Positions 9,407 through 57,749 of a DNA stretch of 64,000 nucleotides are shown piece by piece; positions within the stretch are counted from its first letter, which is position 1; every line of letters begins with the position of its first letter. Position numbers and translations under genes: made by a program. Location: NCBI GenBank assembly GCA_913060875.1, contig CAJXSL010000010.1, positions 1-64,000 of the forward strand, given 5' to 3'. The notes beneath the pieces were generated by a model that was not told the DNA's origin, made no database searches, and saw only the letters and a list, made by a program, of their open reading frames with translations. Source of the DNA: an uncultured Desulfobacteraceae bacterium (GTDB lineage: Bacteria; Desulfobacterota; Desulfobacteria; Desulfobacterales; UBA5852).

Positions 9407-10666
9407 ATGCCAACTTCACAAACAGGCCCCGCCCAACCGGTCGCGATCATCGGCATGGGCATGTCCCCCGGCGACTTGACGGCCGTCCATCGCGACGTGA
9501 TTGCGGCGGCCGATCTCCTGGTGGGGGGGCGGCGCCATCTGGCTTTTTTCCGGGACAGGGTCCCCGAAACGTACACGGTGACCGCCGACCTGAAACAGCT
9601 TGCGGAAGTGATCCGGGAGGGCATCCGGAAGGACAAGCGTATTGTGGTGCTGGCTTCGGGCGATCCGCTGTATTTCGGTATCGGCAGTTATCTGGCGCGG
9701 AACCTGGGGCGGGAAAATATCCGGTTTTATCCCAATATCACCTCGGTGGCGGCCGCTTTTGCCCGGATCGGGGAACCCTGGCAGGATGTGCCGGTGGTCA
9801 GCCTCCACGGTCGGCGTCAGGAGGACCGGCTGGCCCGGGCCCTGGGGCAGGCGAAGCGCATTGCGGTATTTACGGATCCTGCCTGTTCCCCCCAGTGGGT
9901 GGGGGATTTTCTGAGCCGCCGCCAGGTCCTGGATTTCCGGATCGGGGTCTTCGAATGCATGGGCACCGATGAGGAGCGTGTCTCCTGGCACCGTCCGGAA
10001 ACGATCGGAAAACAGGATTTCAACAGCCCCAATATGGTCATCCTCAAAAGAATGCCGGGGGAGGGCGGGGAACGCCCGGGCCTGCACCTGGGGATGCCCG
10101 AGTCGGCCTACGCCCATGAACAGGGTCTGATTACCAAGGCGGAAGTCCGGGCCGTGACGTTGGCTCGGTTGGAACTGGGGCCCCGACAGGTTTTGTGGGA
10201 CCTGGGGGCGGGCAGCGGCGCCGTTGCCATCGAGGCCTCATTGCTGATGCCCGGCGGGCGGATTGTGGCCGTGGAGAAAAATCCGAACCGGATCGAACAG
10301 ATTCGCACCAATCGGGATCGGTTCGGCGTCGCCAATCTGGATGTGGTGGAAACGGTATTGCCGGACGGGTTGGGAGACTTGCCGGACCCGGACCGGGTGT
10401 TCATCGGTGGCGGCGGGAAGGCCCTGATCGAGATCATCGCAAAGGTATGCCGTCGGTTGACAGGGGAGGAGGTTCTGGTGGTCAACACGGTCCTCTTGGA
10501 CAACCTTCACGATACGGTGCGCTGCCTGCGATCCAACGCCATGGACATCGATGTCGTGCAGGTTCAGGCCAGCCGCAGCCAGCCCCTGGCCGACAGCGAG
10601 CGCATGCAGGCCATGAACCCGGTATGGATCATCCGCGGCCGTAAGAAAAGACCCGATGGTGAGTAG
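9407..10666 (+). CDS. cbiET: Fused cobalt-precorrin-7 C5-/C15-methyltransferase CbiET
   Basis: One chain carries both late methylations and the C-12 acetate decarboxylation. Residues about 10-205 are CbiE (tetrapyrrole methylase fold: GMGMSPGDLT near the N-terminus, then ASGDPLYFG). Residues about 225-415 are CbiT, a class I methyltransferase with the SAM loop DLGAGSGAVAIE starting at 265 and VAVEKNP. At 419 residues it equals a full CobL/CbiET fusion. cbiF follows 18 bp later. Confidence 0.94.
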   Translation: MPTSQTGPAQPVAIIGMGMSPGDLTAVHRDVIAAADLLVGGRRHLAFFRDRVPETYTVTADLKQLAEVIREGIRKDKRIVVLASGDPLYFGIGSYLARNLGRENIRFYPNITSVAAAFARIGEPWQDVPVVSLHGRRQEDRLARALGQAKRIAVFTDPACSPQWVGDFLSRRQVLDFRIGVFECMGTDEERVSWHRPETIGKQDFNSPNMVILKRMPGEGGERPGLHLGMPESAYAHEQGLITKAEVRAVTLARLELGPRQVLWDLGAGSGAVAIEASLLMPGGRIVAVEKNPNRIEQIRTNRDRFGVANLDVVETVLPDGLGDLPDPDRVFIGGGGKALIEIIAKVCRRLTGEEVLVVNTVLLDNLHDTVRCLRSNAMDIDVVQVQASRSQPLADSERMQAMNPVWIIRGRKKRPDGE

Positions 10667-10684
10667 AAAGACAGTGAGGTTGAC

Positions 10685-11476
10685 ATGACACAGGAACATC
10701 CGCCGGTATTGTTCGTGGGGGCCGGTCCGGGGGACCCGGAGCTGATTACCGTCAAAGGGCAGAAAGCCCTGGCCCAGGCCGATCTCGTGATCTATGCGGG
10801 GTCCCTGGTGCCGGAAGCCGTTCTAAAATGGGCCCCTGCCAGCGCCCGTACGCTGAACAGCGCCGGCATGACCCTGGAAGAGATTGTGGCCGCCATGGAA
10901 GGCGCCTGGCTGGAGGGCCGGCATGTGGTCCGCCTGCACACGGGCGATCCCAGCCTTTACGGGGCCATTTTCGAGCAGATGGCGGAGTTGAACCGCCAGT
11001 CGATTCCCTACCGGGTCATCCCGGGGGTGACCGCGGCATTTGCCGCCGCGGCGGCCATGGGGATCGAGTACACCCTTCCGGAAGTGTCCCAGACCCTGAT
11101 CATTACCCGCATGGCCGGCCGCACGCCGGTGCCGGAGGGCGAGGCCCTGGCCGCCCTGGCGGCCCACAAAGCCACCATGGCCATTTACCTGAGCATCGGT
11201 CTGGTCCAGCGCGTGGTTGAAGTCCTGCAGGAGGCTTACGGTCCATCGGCGCCCTGTGCCGTGGTCTACCGGGCCAGCCAGCCGGACGAAAAGATCGTGT
11301 ATACAACCCTGGATCGTATGGCCGGCGAGGTGGAGCGGGCCGGAATTCGCCGCCAGGCGGTCATTATCGTGGGACGGGTGCTGGATGTCAGCCTAGAGAG
11401 CCTGAAGCACAAGTCCAAGCTCTACGACGCCGGTTTTGCCCATGGCTACCGGTCTCCACAAGACGAATCTTCCTGA
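10685..11476 (+). CDS. cbiF: Cobalt-precorrin-4 C11-methyltransferase
   Basis: SAM-dependent methylation at C-11 of cobalt-precorrin-4. Tetrapyrrole methylase fold: GAGPGDPELIT near the N-terminus, LHTGDPSLYGA near residue 83, IPGVTAAFAAAAA near 115 and a TRMAGRTPVPE segment typical of CbiF/CobM. Length 263. Placed between cbiET and cbiG, in keeping with consecutive steps. Confidence 0.94.
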   Translation: MTQEHPPVLFVGAGPGDPELITVKGQKALAQADLVIYAGSLVPEAVLKWAPASARTLNSAGMTLEEIVAAMEGAWLEGRHVVRLHTGDPSLYGAIFEQMAELNRQSIPYRVIPGVTAAFAAAAAMGIEYTLPEVSQTLIITRMAGRTPVPEGEALAALAAHKATMAIYLSIGLVQRVVEVLQEAYGPSAPCAVVYRASQPDEKIVYTTLDRMAGEVERAGIRRQAVIIVGRVLDVSLESLKHKSKLYDAGFAHGYRSPQDESS

Positions 11477-11521
11477 GCCGGCGATTGCCCGGTTGTTTTT
11501 AGACCTGATAACGGCACGGAC

Positions 11522-12574
11522 ATGACTGCACGTTTCAATCCCATAGCCATTTGGACCCTGACGGCCGAGGGGGCCGCCCTGGGGCACCGCTTGCAGGCGC
11601 ATTTCCCGGAAAGCCGCCTGTTTGTGGGGCAGCGCGCTGCCGAAAACGCTCCCGGGGCCATCCCATTTGCCCGACTGGCCGAAATCCTGCCCCGGCATTT
11701 CCATCAGTATGCGGGCCATGTCTTTATCATGGCCACCGGTATCGTGGTGCGGTCCCTGGGGGGCCTGCTGCAGCACAAAACCAAAGATCCCGCCGTGGTG
11801 GTGATGGACGAATGCGGACAGTATGCCATCAGCCTTCTTTCCGGCCATCTGGGGGGCGCCAACCGTCTGGCCCGCCGGATAGGGGCCTGCCTGGGGGCCC
11901 AGGCGGTGATCACCACGGCCACCGATCTGCACCAGGTGCCGGCCATCGATCTGATCGCCCAGGAACGGCATCTGGTCATTGAAAATCCCGAGGCCATCCG
12001 CCATGTGAGCATGGCCCTGCTCGAAGGCCGATCCATTGGCCTGCATGATCCCTACGGATACCTTCTGGGGGCCCTGCCGACCCAAGCCGTCAAAGCGGGG
12101 GAAGACGCCGATTCTTCCGGTCCGGGCGTGTGGGTCGATGATATTCGCATTGACCGGCCGGCGGAAACCCTGATATTGCGACCCGCATCCCTTTTTATCG
12201 GCATGGGCTGCAACCGTCATACACCCAGCACCGAGATGCGGGCGTTGCTGGATCACGTGCTGGCGCAATTTAGCTTGTCCGCCGCTTGCATCGCCGGTTT
12301 GGCCAGCATCGATATCAAGGCCGACGAAGAGGGATTGCTGGCGCTGGCCGCGGATTTGTCGCGGCCCTTATCTTTTTTTACCCGGGATCAACTGGCAACG
12401 GTCACAGATATCCCATCGCCCTCGGCCATAGTCGAGAAACACGTAGGAGTTCCAAGCGTATGCGAAGCAGCCGCCATTCTGGCCTCGGGAAGGGGGCCCC
12501 TGATTGTTCCCAAACAGACCACGCCCAACGTGACGATCGCCATCGCCCGAATAAACTCTACATCGTCGGCATAG
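11522..12574 (+). CDS. cbiG: Cobalt-precorrin-5A hydrolase
   Basis: Opens the delta-lactone of cobalt-precorrin-5A and releases acetaldehyde, a step found only in the oxygen-independent pathway. Recognised by MATGIVVRSL and LSGHLGGANRLAR in the N-terminal half and by the C-terminal GMGCNRHTPSTEM ... IVPKQTTPNVTIAIAR block. Length 350. Its last 115 bases overlap the start of cbiH in another frame; the CbiG C-terminus is conserved family sequence, so the overlap is real. Confidence 0.93.
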   Translation: MTARFNPIAIWTLTAEGAALGHRLQAHFPESRLFVGQRAAENAPGAIPFARLAEILPRHFHQYAGHVFIMATGIVVRSLGGLLQHKTKDPAVVVMDECGQYAISLLSGHLGGANRLARRIGACLGAQAVITTATDLHQVPAIDLIAQERHLVIENPEAIRHVSMALLEGRSIGLHDPYGYLLGALPTQAVKAGEDADSSGPGVWVDDIRIDRPAETLILRPASLFIGMGCNRHTPSTEMRALLDHVLAQFSLSAACIAGLASIDIKADEEGLLALAADLSRPLSFFTRDQLATVTDIPSPSAIVEKHVGVPSVCEAAAILASGRGPLIVPKQTTPNVTIAIARINSTSSA

Positions 12575-13335
12575 GCCCCGGAGGTCTCGACCACCTGTCG
12601 CCGCGGGCCCAAGAGGTGCTAGCGGCCGCGGATACGGTGGTCGGCTATACCACCTATATCGATCTTATCCGCCCCCTGGTTTCCGGCAAACAGGTCATCA
12701 GCACGGGCATGACCAAAGAGGTGGACCGCGTCGATGCCGGTATTGCCGCGGCCCTGGCCGGGCAGGTCACGGCCGTCGTTTCCAGCGGTGACGCCGGGAT
12801 TTATGCCATGGCCGGTCTGATCCTGGAGATCTGCCAGAAACGGCAATTGCCCCTGAACGCGACCGGTCCGTTGGATGAAGATCAAGCACTGCAGATCGAG
12901 ATCGTACCCGGCATACCGGCCCTGGCGGCCGGAGCCGCCCTGCTGGGGGCGCCTCTGACCCATGACTTCGCCGTCATCAGCCTGAGCGACCTGCTGACGC
13001 CCTGGGAGACGATTGAAAATCGGCTGGCGGCCGCGGCCCAGGCCGATTTCGTCATCGTCATCTACAATCCCAAGAGCCGGCGGCGGCCGGACAACCTGCA
13101 GCGGGCCTGTGACATCATGAGTGGTTATCGTCGCCCGGAAACGCCGGCCGGCATCGTCACCGGCGCCACCCGAGACAACCAGGTGGTGCAGGTGACGACC
13201 CTGGAGAATCTGTCCCGGGCGGAAGTGGGCATGCAGACGATCGTTTTTGTGGGCAATTCCACCACCACCGCTTATGACGGCTTCATGATCACCCCCCGGG
13301 GGTATGCCCAAAAATACAATATGGACCGGAAGTGA
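12460..13335 (+). CDS. cbiH: Cobalt-precorrin-3 C17-methyltransferase
   Basis: Ring contraction and C-17 methylation of cobalt-precorrin-3. The tetrapyrrole methylase fold begins at LYIVGIGPGG (about 33-42); SSGDAGIYAMA and VIYNPKSRRRP follow. ATG 12460, with TAGGAG ten bases upstream, is the last in-frame start before the conserved domain. It gives a 30-residue unconserved N-terminal extension and a 115-bp overlap with cbiG. The frame stays open further upstream (to 12286), but only inside cbiG coding sequence. Confidence 0.9.
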   Translation: MRSSRHSGLGKGAPDCSQTDHAQRDDRHRPNKLYIVGIGPGGLDHLSPRAQEVLAAADTVVGYTTYIDLIRPLVSGKQVISTGMTKEVDRVDAGIAAALAGQVTAVVSSGDAGIYAMAGLILEICQKRQLPLNATGPLDEDQALQIEIVPGIPALAAGAALLGAPLTHDFAVISLSDLLTPWETIENRLAAAAQADFVIVIYNPKSRRRPDNLQRACDIMSGYRRPETPAGIVTGATRDNQVVQVTTLENLSRAEVGMQTIVFVGNSTTTAYDGFMITPRGYAQKYNMDRK

Positions 13336-52596: not shown

Positions 52597-53604
52597 ATGG
52601 ATCCTAAGGACCAGATTGTATCGCTTTTAAAAGAAGCTGATCTGTATCAGAAACAAGGGCTTTTAAACGAAGCGAAAGAAAGATATAAAAAGGCCACGGA
52701 CATTATTAAAAACAATGCCGGCATTAAAAATGGGCAGGAGCTCATTGCCAGTATCGTCAAAAAAGTTGTCGAGCTCAATCAAAAAATCAATACCATCAAC
52801 CAAGCGACTTCCAAGCCGGCCGTTTCGGATAAGAAACAAGATCTGATTAAAAAACTATTCGCCAGTTCCGGAGAAAAGAAAGATGGCCGTCATGACTTGG
52901 AAGGCGCCATCGCCTTGGCCAAGTTCGGGCAATTCGATCGGGCCCTGGAAGAATTTGAACGCCTTCTGGACGATGAGACGGTTCGGGTGGCCGCCGCAAA
53001 AAATATCGTCCGCTGCCATCTGGAAAGTGAATCCCCTGAAGATGCCGCCCAGAGTTTCGAACGATGGGTAGGGGATGACCGCTTCAGTACGGCGCAACTT
53101 GACAAAATCCGGTTTTTCATTGAAGGGCGCTTTCGCAAGTTGGGTTTTGAGCGAGAATTGTACCAGCATGAGGAAACCGTTTCCGAGGAGGATATTGAAG
53201 ACCTCGAAATGGTATCGGATTCGAACGAGGCGGTTGACACCCCCGGCACTGACCACGGCGTTGAAAGTCAACCAGTCGTTTTGGAAGATATGGAGCTGCC
53301 CGAAGAGGATGAGTTTTTGGATATCAATTCGGTTGGCATCCAACTTCAGACTGGCGTTCAAAAGGGCCGAATGATAGAATTGGATGTCAGTTTTCAGACG
53401 GGCAATTCCATCAACCTGATTGTTTCAAGCAAAGAAAGTACGTTGCTGGGCGAATTGGAAAAGGGTACCGAACTGACCGATATGCAGTTTTTTTCGCCCA
53501 TTGCCATACTCAATGGCTCAGGTGTCGTCACAGCGAAAACGCAAATCAAATCAGGTCCTAAAGAAGGTGACTACAGCTTGGACATTACGATTCTAACCAC
53601 TTAA
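52597..53604 (+). CDS. TPR-like protein of the MglA module
   Basis: 335 residues. Residues 1-70 and about 95-170 look like tetratricopeptide-type helical repeats (A-x-x-Y-x-K, A-L-x-x-F patterns). An acidic linker at about 195-240 (EEDIEDLEM, ELPEEDEFLDI) follows. The last 90 residues are beta-rich and could be a PilZ-like or similar domain; I could not place it. It is followed 33 bp later by a Ras-like GTPase gene, so it may present that GTPase to a partner. Confidence 0.75.
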   Translation: MDPKDQIVSLLKEADLYQKQGLLNEAKERYKKATDIIKNNAGIKNGQELIASIVKKVVELNQKINTINQATSKPAVSDKKQDLIKKLFASSGEKKDGRHDLEGAIALAKFGQFDRALEEFERLLDDETVRVAAAKNIVRCHLESESPEDAAQSFERWVGDDRFSTAQLDKIRFFIEGRFRKLGFERELYQHEETVSEEDIEDLEMVSDSNEAVDTPGTDHGVESQPVVLEDMELPEEDEFLDINSVGIQLQTGVQKGRMIELDVSFQTGNSINLIVSSKESTLLGELEKGTELTDMQFFSPIAILNGSGVVTAKTQIKSGPKEGDYSLDITILTT

Positions 53605-53637
53605 TCCGTTCTGCAACCGCTCCCGGAGCTGATTTGA

Positions 53638-54252
53638 ATGGCTACATTCAATTTTAAGAAAAGAGAAATCGAGTGCAAAATCGTCTATTATGGGCCCGGA
53701 CGATGCGGCAAGACCACCAATCTCGAGTATATCTTTAAAACCTATAAAAAGCAGATCGCCGGTGAAATGGTCTCCATCGATACCGAAGGTGATCGCACCC
53801 TGTTCTTCGATTTTTTGCCCATGGGTCTGGGAAAAATAAAAGGCTGTGACGTAAAAGTGCAGCTTTATACCGTACCCGGTCAGGTTCAATACAGCTCAAC
53901 GCGCAAGCTTGTCCTGAAAGAGGTTGACGGACTGGTTTTTGTGGCTGACTCGCTTGAAGTCCGGCGTGAAAAAAATATGCTGTCCCTGAAGGACCTCCAC
54001 GAAAATCTCAAATCCTACGGTGCCAGTATTTTCAAAGTACCGTTGGTGATGCAATATAATAAACGGGATCTGGAAGAAGAAGGGATCCCGTTGATGCCGA
54101 TCGAGCGGATGGACCAGGACTTGAATCGCCAACTCAAAGCGCCGTGTTTTAGTGCCAGTGCCATCAAGGGCCAAGGTGTTCCGCAAACCATTACCGAATG
54201 CCTCAAGTTGACTTTGCTGAATTTGCAAAGACAACTCAAATGGGCAAAATAG
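53638..54252 (+). CDS. mglA: MglA-type Ras-like GTPase
   Basis: Small GTPase of the MglA family, which sets cell polarity and drives gliding or type IV pilus switching in other bacteria. 204 residues. P-loop GPGRCGKTTN (20-29), DTEGDRTLFFDFLPMG with the MglA-type switch 1, TVPGQVQY (switch 2), and NKRDLEE for guanine binding. No MglB (roadblock) gene is adjacent; a DUF4388/cNMP protein and a PilZ protein follow, which suggests c-di-GMP or cyclic-nucleotide input. Confidence 0.92.
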   Translation: MATFNFKKREIECKIVYYGPGRCGKTTNLEYIFKTYKKQIAGEMVSIDTEGDRTLFFDFLPMGLGKIKGCDVKVQLYTVPGQVQYSSTRKLVLKEVDGLVFVADSLEVRREKNMLSLKDLHENLKSYGASIFKVPLVMQYNKRDLEEEGIPLMPIERMDQDLNRQLKAPCFSASAIKGQGVPQTITECLKLTLLNLQRQLKWAK

Positions 54253-54264
54253 GCTTATCTACCC

Positions 54265-55449
54265 ATGGCCGATCATGTTGTGCTCTCCGGCAACCTGAGC
54301 TTCCTCAATCTGGCTGAACTCCTTCAGTTGTTAGGCTCCAACAATAGCACGGGCATTCTGAGGATTAACTCGCAATACACAGCCGAACCCGGTATCGTCT
54401 ATTTCCTGAACGGCAACCCGGTGCATTCGCTCAACGCGGAATTGCGCGGTCTTGAGGCCATTTTTTCGCTTTTCGGCTGGATGGAGGGGGAATTTGCCTT
54501 TAGTGATGAACCCTATGACGGTGAAGTCACCATCAACAAGAGCCGCATGGAAATTATCCTGGACGGGTTGCGGATGTTGGATGATGGCGAGATCGAAAAA
54601 GTGGAGCCGGTTACGCTGGCGGCAGAAGTAGCGGCTCCCGCAGAAGAGACCGTAAAAAAATCTTCACTGCCGATCATCAAAGGTCCTTTGGTGGATTATT
54701 TACATGTCGTTGATGAAGAGGAATTCTTTGACGGTGAAGAGATCATCATTGAAGGTAACCACGGCAACTGGATATGGGTGATCCTTGAAGGTACCGTTGA
54801 ATTGTCGCGATCGACGCCCAACGGCCCGATAAAATTTTTGCAAATCAGTGATGGTGCGTTTATCGGGAGTATCAGTTCTCTGCTTTCGGATGACAGCGTG
54901 CGCAATGTTACGGCCCAGGCCATCGGAAATGTGCAGTTGGGCATGCTTGACTCTCAAGGCATGGGAAGTGAATTCAGTCGTCTGACCCCGGAGTTTAGAA
55001 ACATTGTCAGGAGTCTTGACAATCGGTTCAACGAAATCATGAACCGGGCCGCGGCCTGTTACGTTGGTAAAAACGATCCGGCCAAACTGTTGAAGGATAA
55101 GGGCCCCGTCATTAAGGAAGGCAAAAATGACGACAAATCCTTCATCATCACCGGGGGGCGGGCATCTATTGTCAGGAAAACCCAGAACGGTGTCGTTCCA
55201 TTGATCACGGGCCTGGGCAAGGGGGATTTCATCGGCCAAATCCCCTTTCTTGACATGGGATTGGAGCCGACATCCGCCATCGTTGTCGGTGACAAACGCT
55301 TGAAAGTCGCCACCATCGATCAGCAGACGTTACAGGATGAATATGACCAGTTGTCATTGACCTTCAAGAATATGCTGGAAAATATTTCAACCATTATTCT
55401 GGCTACGGCCATGGTGATCTGCGGACTAGAAAAGAAAACCGCCGAATAA
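54265..55449 (+). CDS. DUF4388 / cyclic-nucleotide-binding-like protein
   Basis: 394 residues. The N-terminal 1-110 (LSGNLSFLNLAELLQLLGS, GIVYFLNGNPVHS) is a DUF4388/PATAN-type domain. About 145-260 and 270-390 are two cyclic-nucleotide-binding-like beta-rolls (GEEIIIEGNHGNWIWVILEG; then SFIITGGRASIVRK ... GKGDFIGQIPF). The phosphate-binding RA signature is not obvious, so they may not bind nucleotide. Twelve bases from mglA, same transcript. Confidence 0.8.
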   Translation: MADHVVLSGNLSFLNLAELLQLLGSNNSTGILRINSQYTAEPGIVYFLNGNPVHSLNAELRGLEAIFSLFGWMEGEFAFSDEPYDGEVTINKSRMEIILDGLRMLDDGEIEKVEPVTLAAEVAAPAEETVKKSSLPIIKGPLVDYLHVVDEEEFFDGEEIIIEGNHGNWIWVILEGTVELSRSTPNGPIKFLQISDGAFIGSISSLLSDDSVRNVTAQAIGNVQLGMLDSQGMGSEFSRLTPEFRNIVRSLDNRFNEIMNRAAACYVGKNDPAKLLKDKGPVIKEGKNDDKSFIITGGRASIVRKTQNGVVPLITGLGKGDFIGQIPFLDMGLEPTSAIVVGDKRLKVATIDQQTLQDEYDQLSLTFKNMLENISTIILATAMVICGLEKKTAE

Positions 55450-55485
55450 CTGTCCTGTATTGACTAAGATAACGGGGGAATCGAT

Positions 55486-55833
55486 ATGATATCCGAAAAA
55501 AGAAAACATATGCGCATCAATGCACTCAATCTTTCGCATGTGGCTGTGGACGATCAGGAGGATACGGTCAAACAGGCGATTGGGCGCACCCTGAATGTGT
55601 CTGAGACCGGTATTTTACTGGAAACCCATTTCCCCATCGAGTCGGATCAGAACGTTGAATTGACCCTGGGGTTCGAGGAAAACCTGGTCAGTCTCAGGGG
55701 CAAGGTGATTCATCTGCTGAACGGTGAAACCGGAAAATTCGAGATGGGCATTCAATTTACCGATATCGATGCGCAGGGTACGGAAGTCATCAAGGATTTC
55801 ATCCAGCGGTTTCGAAAACTGACGAAAAAATAG
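55486..55833 (+). CDS. PilZ-domain protein of the MglA module
   Basis: 115 residues. c-di-GMP motifs RKHMR (6-10) and NVSETG (about 44-49) are intact. 36 bp after the DUF4388 gene, likely co-transcribed. Gives the module a probable c-di-GMP sensor. A second PilZ protein lies at 31062. Confidence 0.85.
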
Positions 55834-55903: not shown

Positions 55904-56800
55904 ATGAAAACCGCCGTTTATCAGACGAATTTGGAAAAAATGCCCCTCCTCAAACAGGGCAAGGTTCGAGACATCTACGATCTAGGGGACAGCCTCTTAA
56001 TGATTGCGACCGATCGTCTTTCGGCCTTTGATGTGGTGATGCCGGATCCAATCCCGGATAAGGGGAAAATTCTGAACCAGATTTCCATTTTTTGGTTTGA
56101 TGTGATGGCGGATATCGTTCCCAATCATTTAATCGAGTGGGATGTATCGAAATTTCCGGCTGCGTGTCAGCCATATCAGGATCTGCTGGCAGATCGCAGC
56201 ATGGTGGTTAAAAAAGTCGAACCGTTGCCGATTGAGTGCGTTGTGCGGGGCTATATTTCAGGTTCGGGATGGAAATCGTATCAAGAGGACGCTACCATTT
56301 GCGGTATTCCGCTTCCGGAAGGCCTTAGAGAATCGGATAAATTGCCGGAACCTCTGTTTACCCCATCCACCAAAGAAGAAGTCGGTCTGCATGATATCAA
56401 TATCAGTTTCAAAGAAGCGGCCAATCGCGTCGGAAGTGAAATCGCGGAAAAGGTTCGCGACCTGAGCCTGGAAATCTATCGCAAAGGCGTTCAGCTTGCC
56501 GCCGAGAAAGGTATTATTATCGCCGATACCAAATTTGAATTTGGGTTGCTCGATGGCGACATTATATTAATCGATGAGGTTTTGACGCCGGATTCGTCAC
56601 GTTTCTGGCCGCAAGAGGCTTTCGCGCCCGGTGGCCCTCAACCCAGTTTTGATAAACAGTTTGTTCGTGATTATTTGCTTGAAATCGCTTTCAATAAAAT
56701 GCCGCCCGGTCCCAAGCTACCCGAAGATGTCATCGCAAAAACACGTGAAAAATATGTTGAAGCCTTAAAGCTGCTGACCGGATCGACGCATGGATTATAA
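55904..56800 (+). CDS. purC: Phosphoribosylaminoimidazole-succinocarboxamide synthase
   Basis: SAICAR synthase of purine synthesis. 298 residues. [11 protein letters not shown] with [33 protein letters not shown], and [15 protein letters not shown] are typical. ATG with GGGAGAAACAGG upstream. The 3' end overlaps the next gene by 11 bp. Confidence 0.94.
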
Positions 56801-57749
56801 GGCCGAATGGGTCGCAACGGATTCCATCGATAAAACCAATTGTTTGTATCGCATCACTACGCCTCAAGGTAAATTGCCTATTGACGCGTCGGTAAAACGA
56901 ATCGGTCTTTTGTCTCCTGTTGTCGTCAAAAAAGAAACCGATCATTTGGTCGTCGTCAGCGGGTTCAGACGCCTGGAATCCTGTTGCCGGCTAAAATGGC
57001 CCCGCATTCCATGCCAAATTTTGCCCGATGATGTTTCGAAAATAAACTGTGCTGAAATTGCCATTACCGAAAATTTGACGCAACGTCCCCTCAATGTGGT
57101 TGAACAGGCCAGATGCCTGCAGCTTCTAAGTGATGCCGGATGTGACCATCCGCAAGCCATGGCGATTGCCCAGTCCTTGGGTTTGTCTCTGAATCATGCC
57201 TATGCGGCCAAATTGCGAACGGTGCATAGCTGCTCGGAAGCCGTACAAGACGGGATCGTTCAAGGTAAGCTCAGTCTGCCCATTGTCGTGCTGCTTGCCG
57301 AACTTCCCAGTAAAGACGCCGATGCGCTGGCATCGGTATTTATCGGTTTGCCTATGGGCCTTAACAAGCAACGTGAAATTTTACATCACTTAAAAGAAAT
57401 TGCCGCGCGTGACGACATTGCCATCACGGGATTATTTGAGGAAGAGGGGCTTAAGGATATCCTCGCGAGGGATGATATGGATGGCAACCGTAAAGTTGGT
57501 CAAATTCGTTCTTATCTAAAAAAAAGGCGCTATCCCCATTTGATGGACGTCGAAGAACGATTTGAAAATTATTACCGTCAACTTAAATTGGGGACCGGGG
57601 TTAAAATTCAACCGCCGCCCTATTTTGAAGGACCCACTTACACGATGACCATTCGTTTTGACGGATTAGAGGATTTAAAACGTGAAAACGATAATATAGC
57701 CCGGGCCATTGCTGACCCGATGGCGTCCAAATTATTCAATCTGATCTAA
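56790..57749 (+). CDS. ParB/Srx-fold protein overlapping purC
   Basis: 319 residues. N-terminal ParB-like nuclease/CTPase fold: [22 protein letters not shown] (in place of the usual GERR box), [22 protein letters not shown] followed by a helix-turn-helix ([22 protein letters not shown]). No parA beside it, so chromosome partition is unlikely; a transcriptional regulator or a CTP-switch adaptor are options. ATG overlaps the purC stop. Confidence 0.8.

Follow-up and report, generated by a model that had tools for sequence, protein, structure and literature searches.

How a Ras-like MglA GTPase works when MglB, its usual GAP, is not encoded beside it is the question raised by a four-gene locus in the genome of an uncultured Desulfobacteraceae bacterium. 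Research on MglA has mostly been carried out in Myxococcus, Thermus, and Bdellovibrio. The locus lies in a stretch of 64,000 nucleotides, here termed the window, and its four genes are arranged co-directionally on the + strand in the order TPR, MglA, DUF4388-cNMP, and PilZ, with intergenic gaps of 33, 12, and 36 bp. The first gene (52597..53604) encodes a TPR protein of 335 aa (TPR PF13432, 4e-8 in Pfam), the second (53638..54252) an MglA-type Ras-like GTPase of 204 aa (Ras/Arf type in Pfam), the third (54265..55449) a protein of 394 aa in which a DUF4388 (PATAN-type) domain is joined to two cNMP-binding-like domains with degenerate pockets, and the fourth (55486..55833) a stand-alone PilZ protein of 115 aa. 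The initial annotation had described the same ORFs, domains, and spacing and took the spacing to suggest a single transcript; coordinates and domains both match, and the co-directional genes are linked in relatives too.

An mdh-like ORF lies upstream of the TPR gene in divergent orientation. Downstream on the + strand is the gene for PurC (SAICAR synthetase; 55904..56800), a conserved neighbor that is probably positional and outside the mechanism, and this is overlapped by 11 bp by a gene for a conserved ParB_N-like protein (56790..57749, +). Conservation of the ParB_N-like/purC pair roughly equals that of the cluster, and an obvious link to purine synthesis is absent. A consensus scan of the + strand between PilZ and purC, which is weak evidence, found no terminator-like site.

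The best PDB matches of the cluster MglA are MglA structures (M. xanthus, 4e-55), and the protein carries the features that define Group 1 MglA proteins (PMC4316618), namely the P-loop (GPGRCGKTT), the intrinsic Arg finger (Arg53), TVPGQ, and the NKxD motif (NKRD). Arg53, Thr78, and Gln82 are conserved both in the cluster MglAs and in MglAs coupled to MglB, and none of the catalytic residues is lost from the cluster MglA, whether the genome has mglB or not, from which it seems that GTP hydrolysis is selected for even where there is no MglB at all. Many other nearly fixed positions differ between the two kinds of MglA. The MglB-coupled proteins form one clade (support 100/100) and the cluster MglAs fall outside it, with a few unlinked paralogs among them. 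Gly21 is found in 110 of 112 MglA sequences, in place of the Ser21 of the Bdellovibrio type, and the G21/S21 position was rejected as a marker of MglB loss.

An mglB is absent from the surroundings of the operon that were covered, and in the window none occurs at a distance of up to four genes from mglA. The initial annotation's statement that MglB is missing holds at the locus but not for the genome, as a search beyond the locus located one mglB (G000:C6:158358-158762), directly upstream of a second, paralogous mglA (C6:158823-159425) whose product is 60% identical to the cluster MglA and belongs to a different clade. The class was sampled with 147 genomes, 82 of them with a cluster-type MglA. 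A profile built from 22 MglBs of the class matched in 85 of the 147 genomes, and the matches were bimodal, the weakest full-length one scoring 3e-31 with only a single fragment (0.005) below it, a clean gap that makes the absence of mglB credible. By this search, 26 of the 82 genomes with a cluster MglA, spread over 13 families, have no mglB, and in 18 of them the cluster-type MglA is the only one; the cleanest case is a closed genome in one contig that is 99% complete (G037). The cluster MglA is genetically independent of MglB.

Could the GTPase nevertheless be served by a roadblock protein encoded at a distance? In such an arrangement, an ordinary MglA/MglB system would simply have its genes split, with either the genomic MglB or a REC-PATAN-roadblock protein acting as the GAP in trans. 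The host has candidates for both, since in addition to the mglB on C6 it encodes a REC-DUF4388-roadblock fusion of 398 aa (L241:1009-2205, - strand; G000:C4, about 126354-127109; roadblock match below the cut-off), possibly an orphan, signal-controlled MglA regulator. The cluster MglA also retains the Group 1 catalytic residues that are the targets of MglB action, and in a Desulforapulum-like genome (L222, approximately 10156-13200) mglBA comes immediately after the cluster and purC, which places the two MglA systems side by side, the single near-exception to the absence of mglB close to the cluster mglA. The 26 mglB-less cluster genomes argue against this arrangement, because a REC-PATAN match reaching the roadblock was seen among them only in G061, and partially in G090, with a separate roadblock in G127; a roadblock protein acting in trans is accordingly possible in the host and unlikely as a general answer. 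Further evidence against it comes from the many fixed positions that separate the cluster MglA from MglB-coupled MglA and from the comparison of cluster MglAs from mglB-less and mglB genomes (11 vs 22 sequences), in which no residue shift beyond noise was found. A split MglA/MglB system is, on balance, a rather unlikely explanation.

Several related arrangements were seen in the course of these searches. Other Desulfobacteria also have REC-DUF4388-roadblock relatives, about 380-640 aa long, and in the host mglBA is followed at a distance of about 5 kb by the gene of a REC-DUF4388 (PATAN) response regulator (L087:12491-13513, +; G000:C6:164868). In another genome (L099:3364-6570, G078) the gene order is REC-PATAN, TPR/PilZ-fold, mglB, and mglA, and TPR and PATAN proteins are therefore also found with an MglB-coupled system.

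The partners encoded with the cluster MglA have distinct features. In its AlphaFold model, the TPR protein consists of TPR helices (about residues 1-200), an acidic linker that is disordered (about 202-238), and a C-terminal beta domain modeled with confidence (242-335; 53302..53601, + strand). This last domain has no credible sequence match in Pfam or the PDB and shows no similarity to the operon's own PilZ by profile comparison (hhalign), which means that it is assigned to PilZ purely by its fold. In a structural-comparison list that is dominated by the TPR part and with which other folds for the domain are still possible, residues 242-335 were most similar to the MrkH PilZ domain (Z 11.2, rmsd 2.3, 86 residues), with PP4397 (Z 9.8) and MotI/DgrA (Z 9.1) among the further matches. 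Of 63 sequences of this tail, 19 have a DxSxxG-like motif, all 19 without RxxxR upstream, and in the window's protein RxxxR is also absent upstream of the domain, the preceding stretch being acidic. As modeled, the domain is probably a cryptic PilZ fold that is blind to c-di-GMP. The stand-alone PilZ protein (Pfam, 5e-12), which had no match in a PDB sequence search, is of another kind: RxxxR and (D/N)xSxxG are both intact in 43/43 sequences (NxSxxG in the window), making it a probable c-di-GMP receptor, in agreement with the likely c-di-GMP sensor that had been proposed at the outset. In a further genome (L123:7446-8851, G139), a TPR/PilZ-fold paralog adjoins a different PilZ gene, and MglA is not encoded close by.

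The third protein matches DUF4388 (PF14332, 7e-18) and, twice, cNMP_binding in Pfam. We take DUF4388 to be the PATAN domain, an identity that fits its occurrence in Synechococcus among the control genomes, and a PDB sequence search with this domain gave no match. In the model, the N-terminal DUF4388 is followed by two CNB domains in tandem that are most like PKA regulatory subunits. The Glu position of the cassette in domain A is Ser in 47/57 sequences while the Arg is kept in 57/57, and in domain B both Glu and Arg are missing at the expected places, with mostly Pro at the Arg region. Ordinary cAMP binding by these domains is unlikely given such substitutions, and they may bind other ligands. 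A defence-system library searched against the cluster returned weak cNMP matches only.

In a second explanation, the operon would be a self-contained, c-di-GMP-gated GTPase switch and either the TPR/PilZ-fold protein or the PATAN/pseudo-CNB protein would be a non-roadblock GAP or GEF that is controlled by c-di-GMP via PilZ. If true, the GAP/GEF role held elsewhere by MglB or RomRX would pass to a non-roadblock partner. It would account for the constraint on the catalytic residues of MglA in genomes without mglB and for the position of the DUF4388 gene as the one closest to mglA. The distribution of the TPR protein weakly hints in the same direction, as it is kept in 26/26 mglB-less vs 49/56 mglB-containing cluster genomes, all seven TPR-less genomes having mglB (Fisher p 0.09, relatedness uncorrected). 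On the other hand, mglB and the module are found together in most genomes, and the frequent co-occurrence of mglB and TPR argues against TPR replacing MglB, as does a TPR paralog that sits next to mglBA in another genome and is hence no simple substitute. Pfam gave no roadblock match in any of the four cluster proteins, and by our reading of the AlphaFold models of the TPR and DUF4388 proteins their order of secondary structure is unlike that of a roadblock and no known GAP fold is seen. The earlier suggestion that one of these two proteins stands in for MglB found no positive evidence, and a GAP or GEF role for either must be considered doubtful.

That the four genes belong together is evident from their conservation. 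TPR-protein matches were found in 84/147 genomes in the class-wide search, and the gene order of the cluster recurs at most of 60 neighborhoods inspected. A separate, independent scan, this time of named genomes, yielded 80 related loci, at all of which MglA directly follows TPR, a linkage far above chance; DUF4388 comes next at 78/78 loci that are intact there, and PilZ, PurC, and ParB then follow in most of the 80. The gap between MglA and DUF4388 is small in relatives (median 9 bp), DUF4388 being the nearest neighbor of mglA, and that between TPR and MglA is wider (median 101 bp, and >100 bp in half of the relatives). The operon is carried by, among others, Desulfosarcina widdelii PP31, D. 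cetonica, and Desulfonema magnum; in the last of these, PilZ was not called. At 6/80 loci DUF4388 is succeeded by PurC and an intervening PilZ was not called, and a TPR homolog of the cluster family was not found in 7/82 cluster genomes, which indicates that both proteins are dispensable in some lineages. In two of the TPR-less genomes (L134, L135), a malate-dehydrogenase-type gene is directly upstream of mglA.

A phylum-wide survey, which sampled few genomes of the same class and shows presence elsewhere rather than frequency, found the gene set in other families, as PilZ-TPR-MglA-DUF4388 at L230 and L232 and as TPR-MglA-DUF4388 at L233. At none of these three loci was purC seen beside the set, and the linkage is accordingly no positional accident. 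The four-gene set is a real operon that is common to many sulfate-reducing Desulfobacteria. That its members are positional neighbors upstream of purC that function separately is very improbable, since the set is maintained away from purC at L230, L232, and L233, with PilZ moved at the first two, and relatives of TPR and PATAN recur beside mglBA elsewhere (L099), even if purC and the ParB-like gene flank the set at about equal conservation.

The reading we favor, with a probability of roughly 55%, is that of an MglB-independent, MglA-class operon encoding a c-di-GMP-responsive effector module that probably serves type IV pili, and such a module is best understood as running parallel to MglA/MglB rather than replacing it. 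Precedents exist in MglA or pilus control for each type of partner. MglA-GTP binds the TPR protein SgmX, which positions PilB (PMC7519303), and in Bdellovibrio, MglA without MglB binds the TPR protein Bd2492, which binds the c-di-GMP receptor CdgA (PMC3983030). Binding of PilB has been described for PATAN regulators (Han 2022, cited in PMC10519157 and PMC9090330), MglA genes are found near PATAN genes (PMC4316618), and the PilZ proteins PlpA and PixA set MglA polarity (PMC8316039). Taken together, SgmX, Bd2492/CdgA, PATAN-PilB, PlpA/PixA, and the MglA-PATAN proximity point to a pilus-directed MglA effector complex under c-di-GMP. The analysis itself establishes the operon, its conservation, its domains and motifs, and its persistence without mglB; all binding events, the response to c-di-GMP, the output in pili, and the source of GTPase activation are inferred. 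In this effector module, MglA-GTP would be the localized switch and the TPR protein its scaffold or effector, whose TPR part would bind MglA in the manner of SgmX and Bd2492 while the PilZ-fold tail docks a partner. The PATAN protein would serve as the adaptor that links to PilB, the motor of type IV pili, its pseudo-CNB domains could be interaction or atypical ligand modules, and the small PilZ protein would sense c-di-GMP and tune the complex, such that the output is when and where type IV pili are deployed on surfaces. A PilT-type ATPase is present in 146/147 genomes, and PilT was rejected as a correlate of the cluster because a protein that is nearly universal in the class does not discriminate.

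Among known systems, the polar hub of Bdellovibrio bacteriovorus, MglA-Bd2492(TPR)-RomR-CdgA, is similar in having MglA without MglB, a role in type IV pili, and a TPR partner comparable in size (353 aa) and tied to a c-di-GMP receptor (PMC3983030). It differs in that its genes are not in one operon, its MglA has S21 where the cluster MglA has G21, its c-di-GMP receptor is a degenerate GGDEF protein rather than a PilZ protein, and it is not known to have a PATAN/CNB partner such as that of the cluster. Bd2492 is also encoded with tamAB-like genes, whereas the TPR gene of the cluster has the mdh-like ORF upstream and mglA downstream, with no tamB/tamA-like genes following. The MglA/MglB/SgmX/FrzS system of Myxococcus xanthus shares the Group 1 MglA residues and a TPR effector, and PATAN and TPR proteins surfaced there as SgmX-related candidates, but its mglA is paired with the GAP MglB and SgmX is a protein of 1060 aa that is reported to be c-di-GMP-independent (PMC7519303, PMC11580455). 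Long TPR proteins are also encoded near further MglAs in the class, as in G109 (L124:6208-9481), where a second MglA without mglB is followed by a TPR protein of 794 aa, and in G078 and G094, and these are possibly SgmX-like.

The proximity of Group 1/5 MglA to PATAN genes (Wuichet and Sogaard-Andersen, 2014; PMC4316618) resembles the adjoining MglA and PATAN-type genes of the cluster, but there it is occasional, while here it is near-fixed, with TPR and PilZ in addition and without MglB. In the citing articles (PMC9090330, PMC10519157), the cyanobacterial proteins PixE, PixG, PilG, and TaxP2 likewise have PATAN in a pilus regulator, with receiver domains in place of the two pseudo-CNB domains to which the cluster PATAN is fused. 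PlpA and PixA of M. xanthus are PilZ proteins that act on MglA polarity (PMC8316039), but they are not known to be encoded with mglA and PixA has a receiver domain. The separate parts and their pairwise links are of kinds already known. A literature search that covered mainly freely available papers yielded no description of the operon in sulfate reducers. What is new, to the extent examined, is the fixed combination, its spread in Desulfobacteria, the fact that it does not depend on MglB, and the cryptic PilZ fold of the TPR protein.

The operon supplies candidate partners of MglA as gene neighbors, a probable c-di-GMP receptor among them, and as these are four small, apparently soluble proteins, it makes the question of how MglA functions in the absence of MglB testable. 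It also suggests that c-di-GMP and Ras-like polarity control, which are usually separate topics in pilus regulation, are directly connected, and its persistence in many genomes that lack mglB means that it probably governs type IV pili on the cell surface by a mechanism that has not been described.
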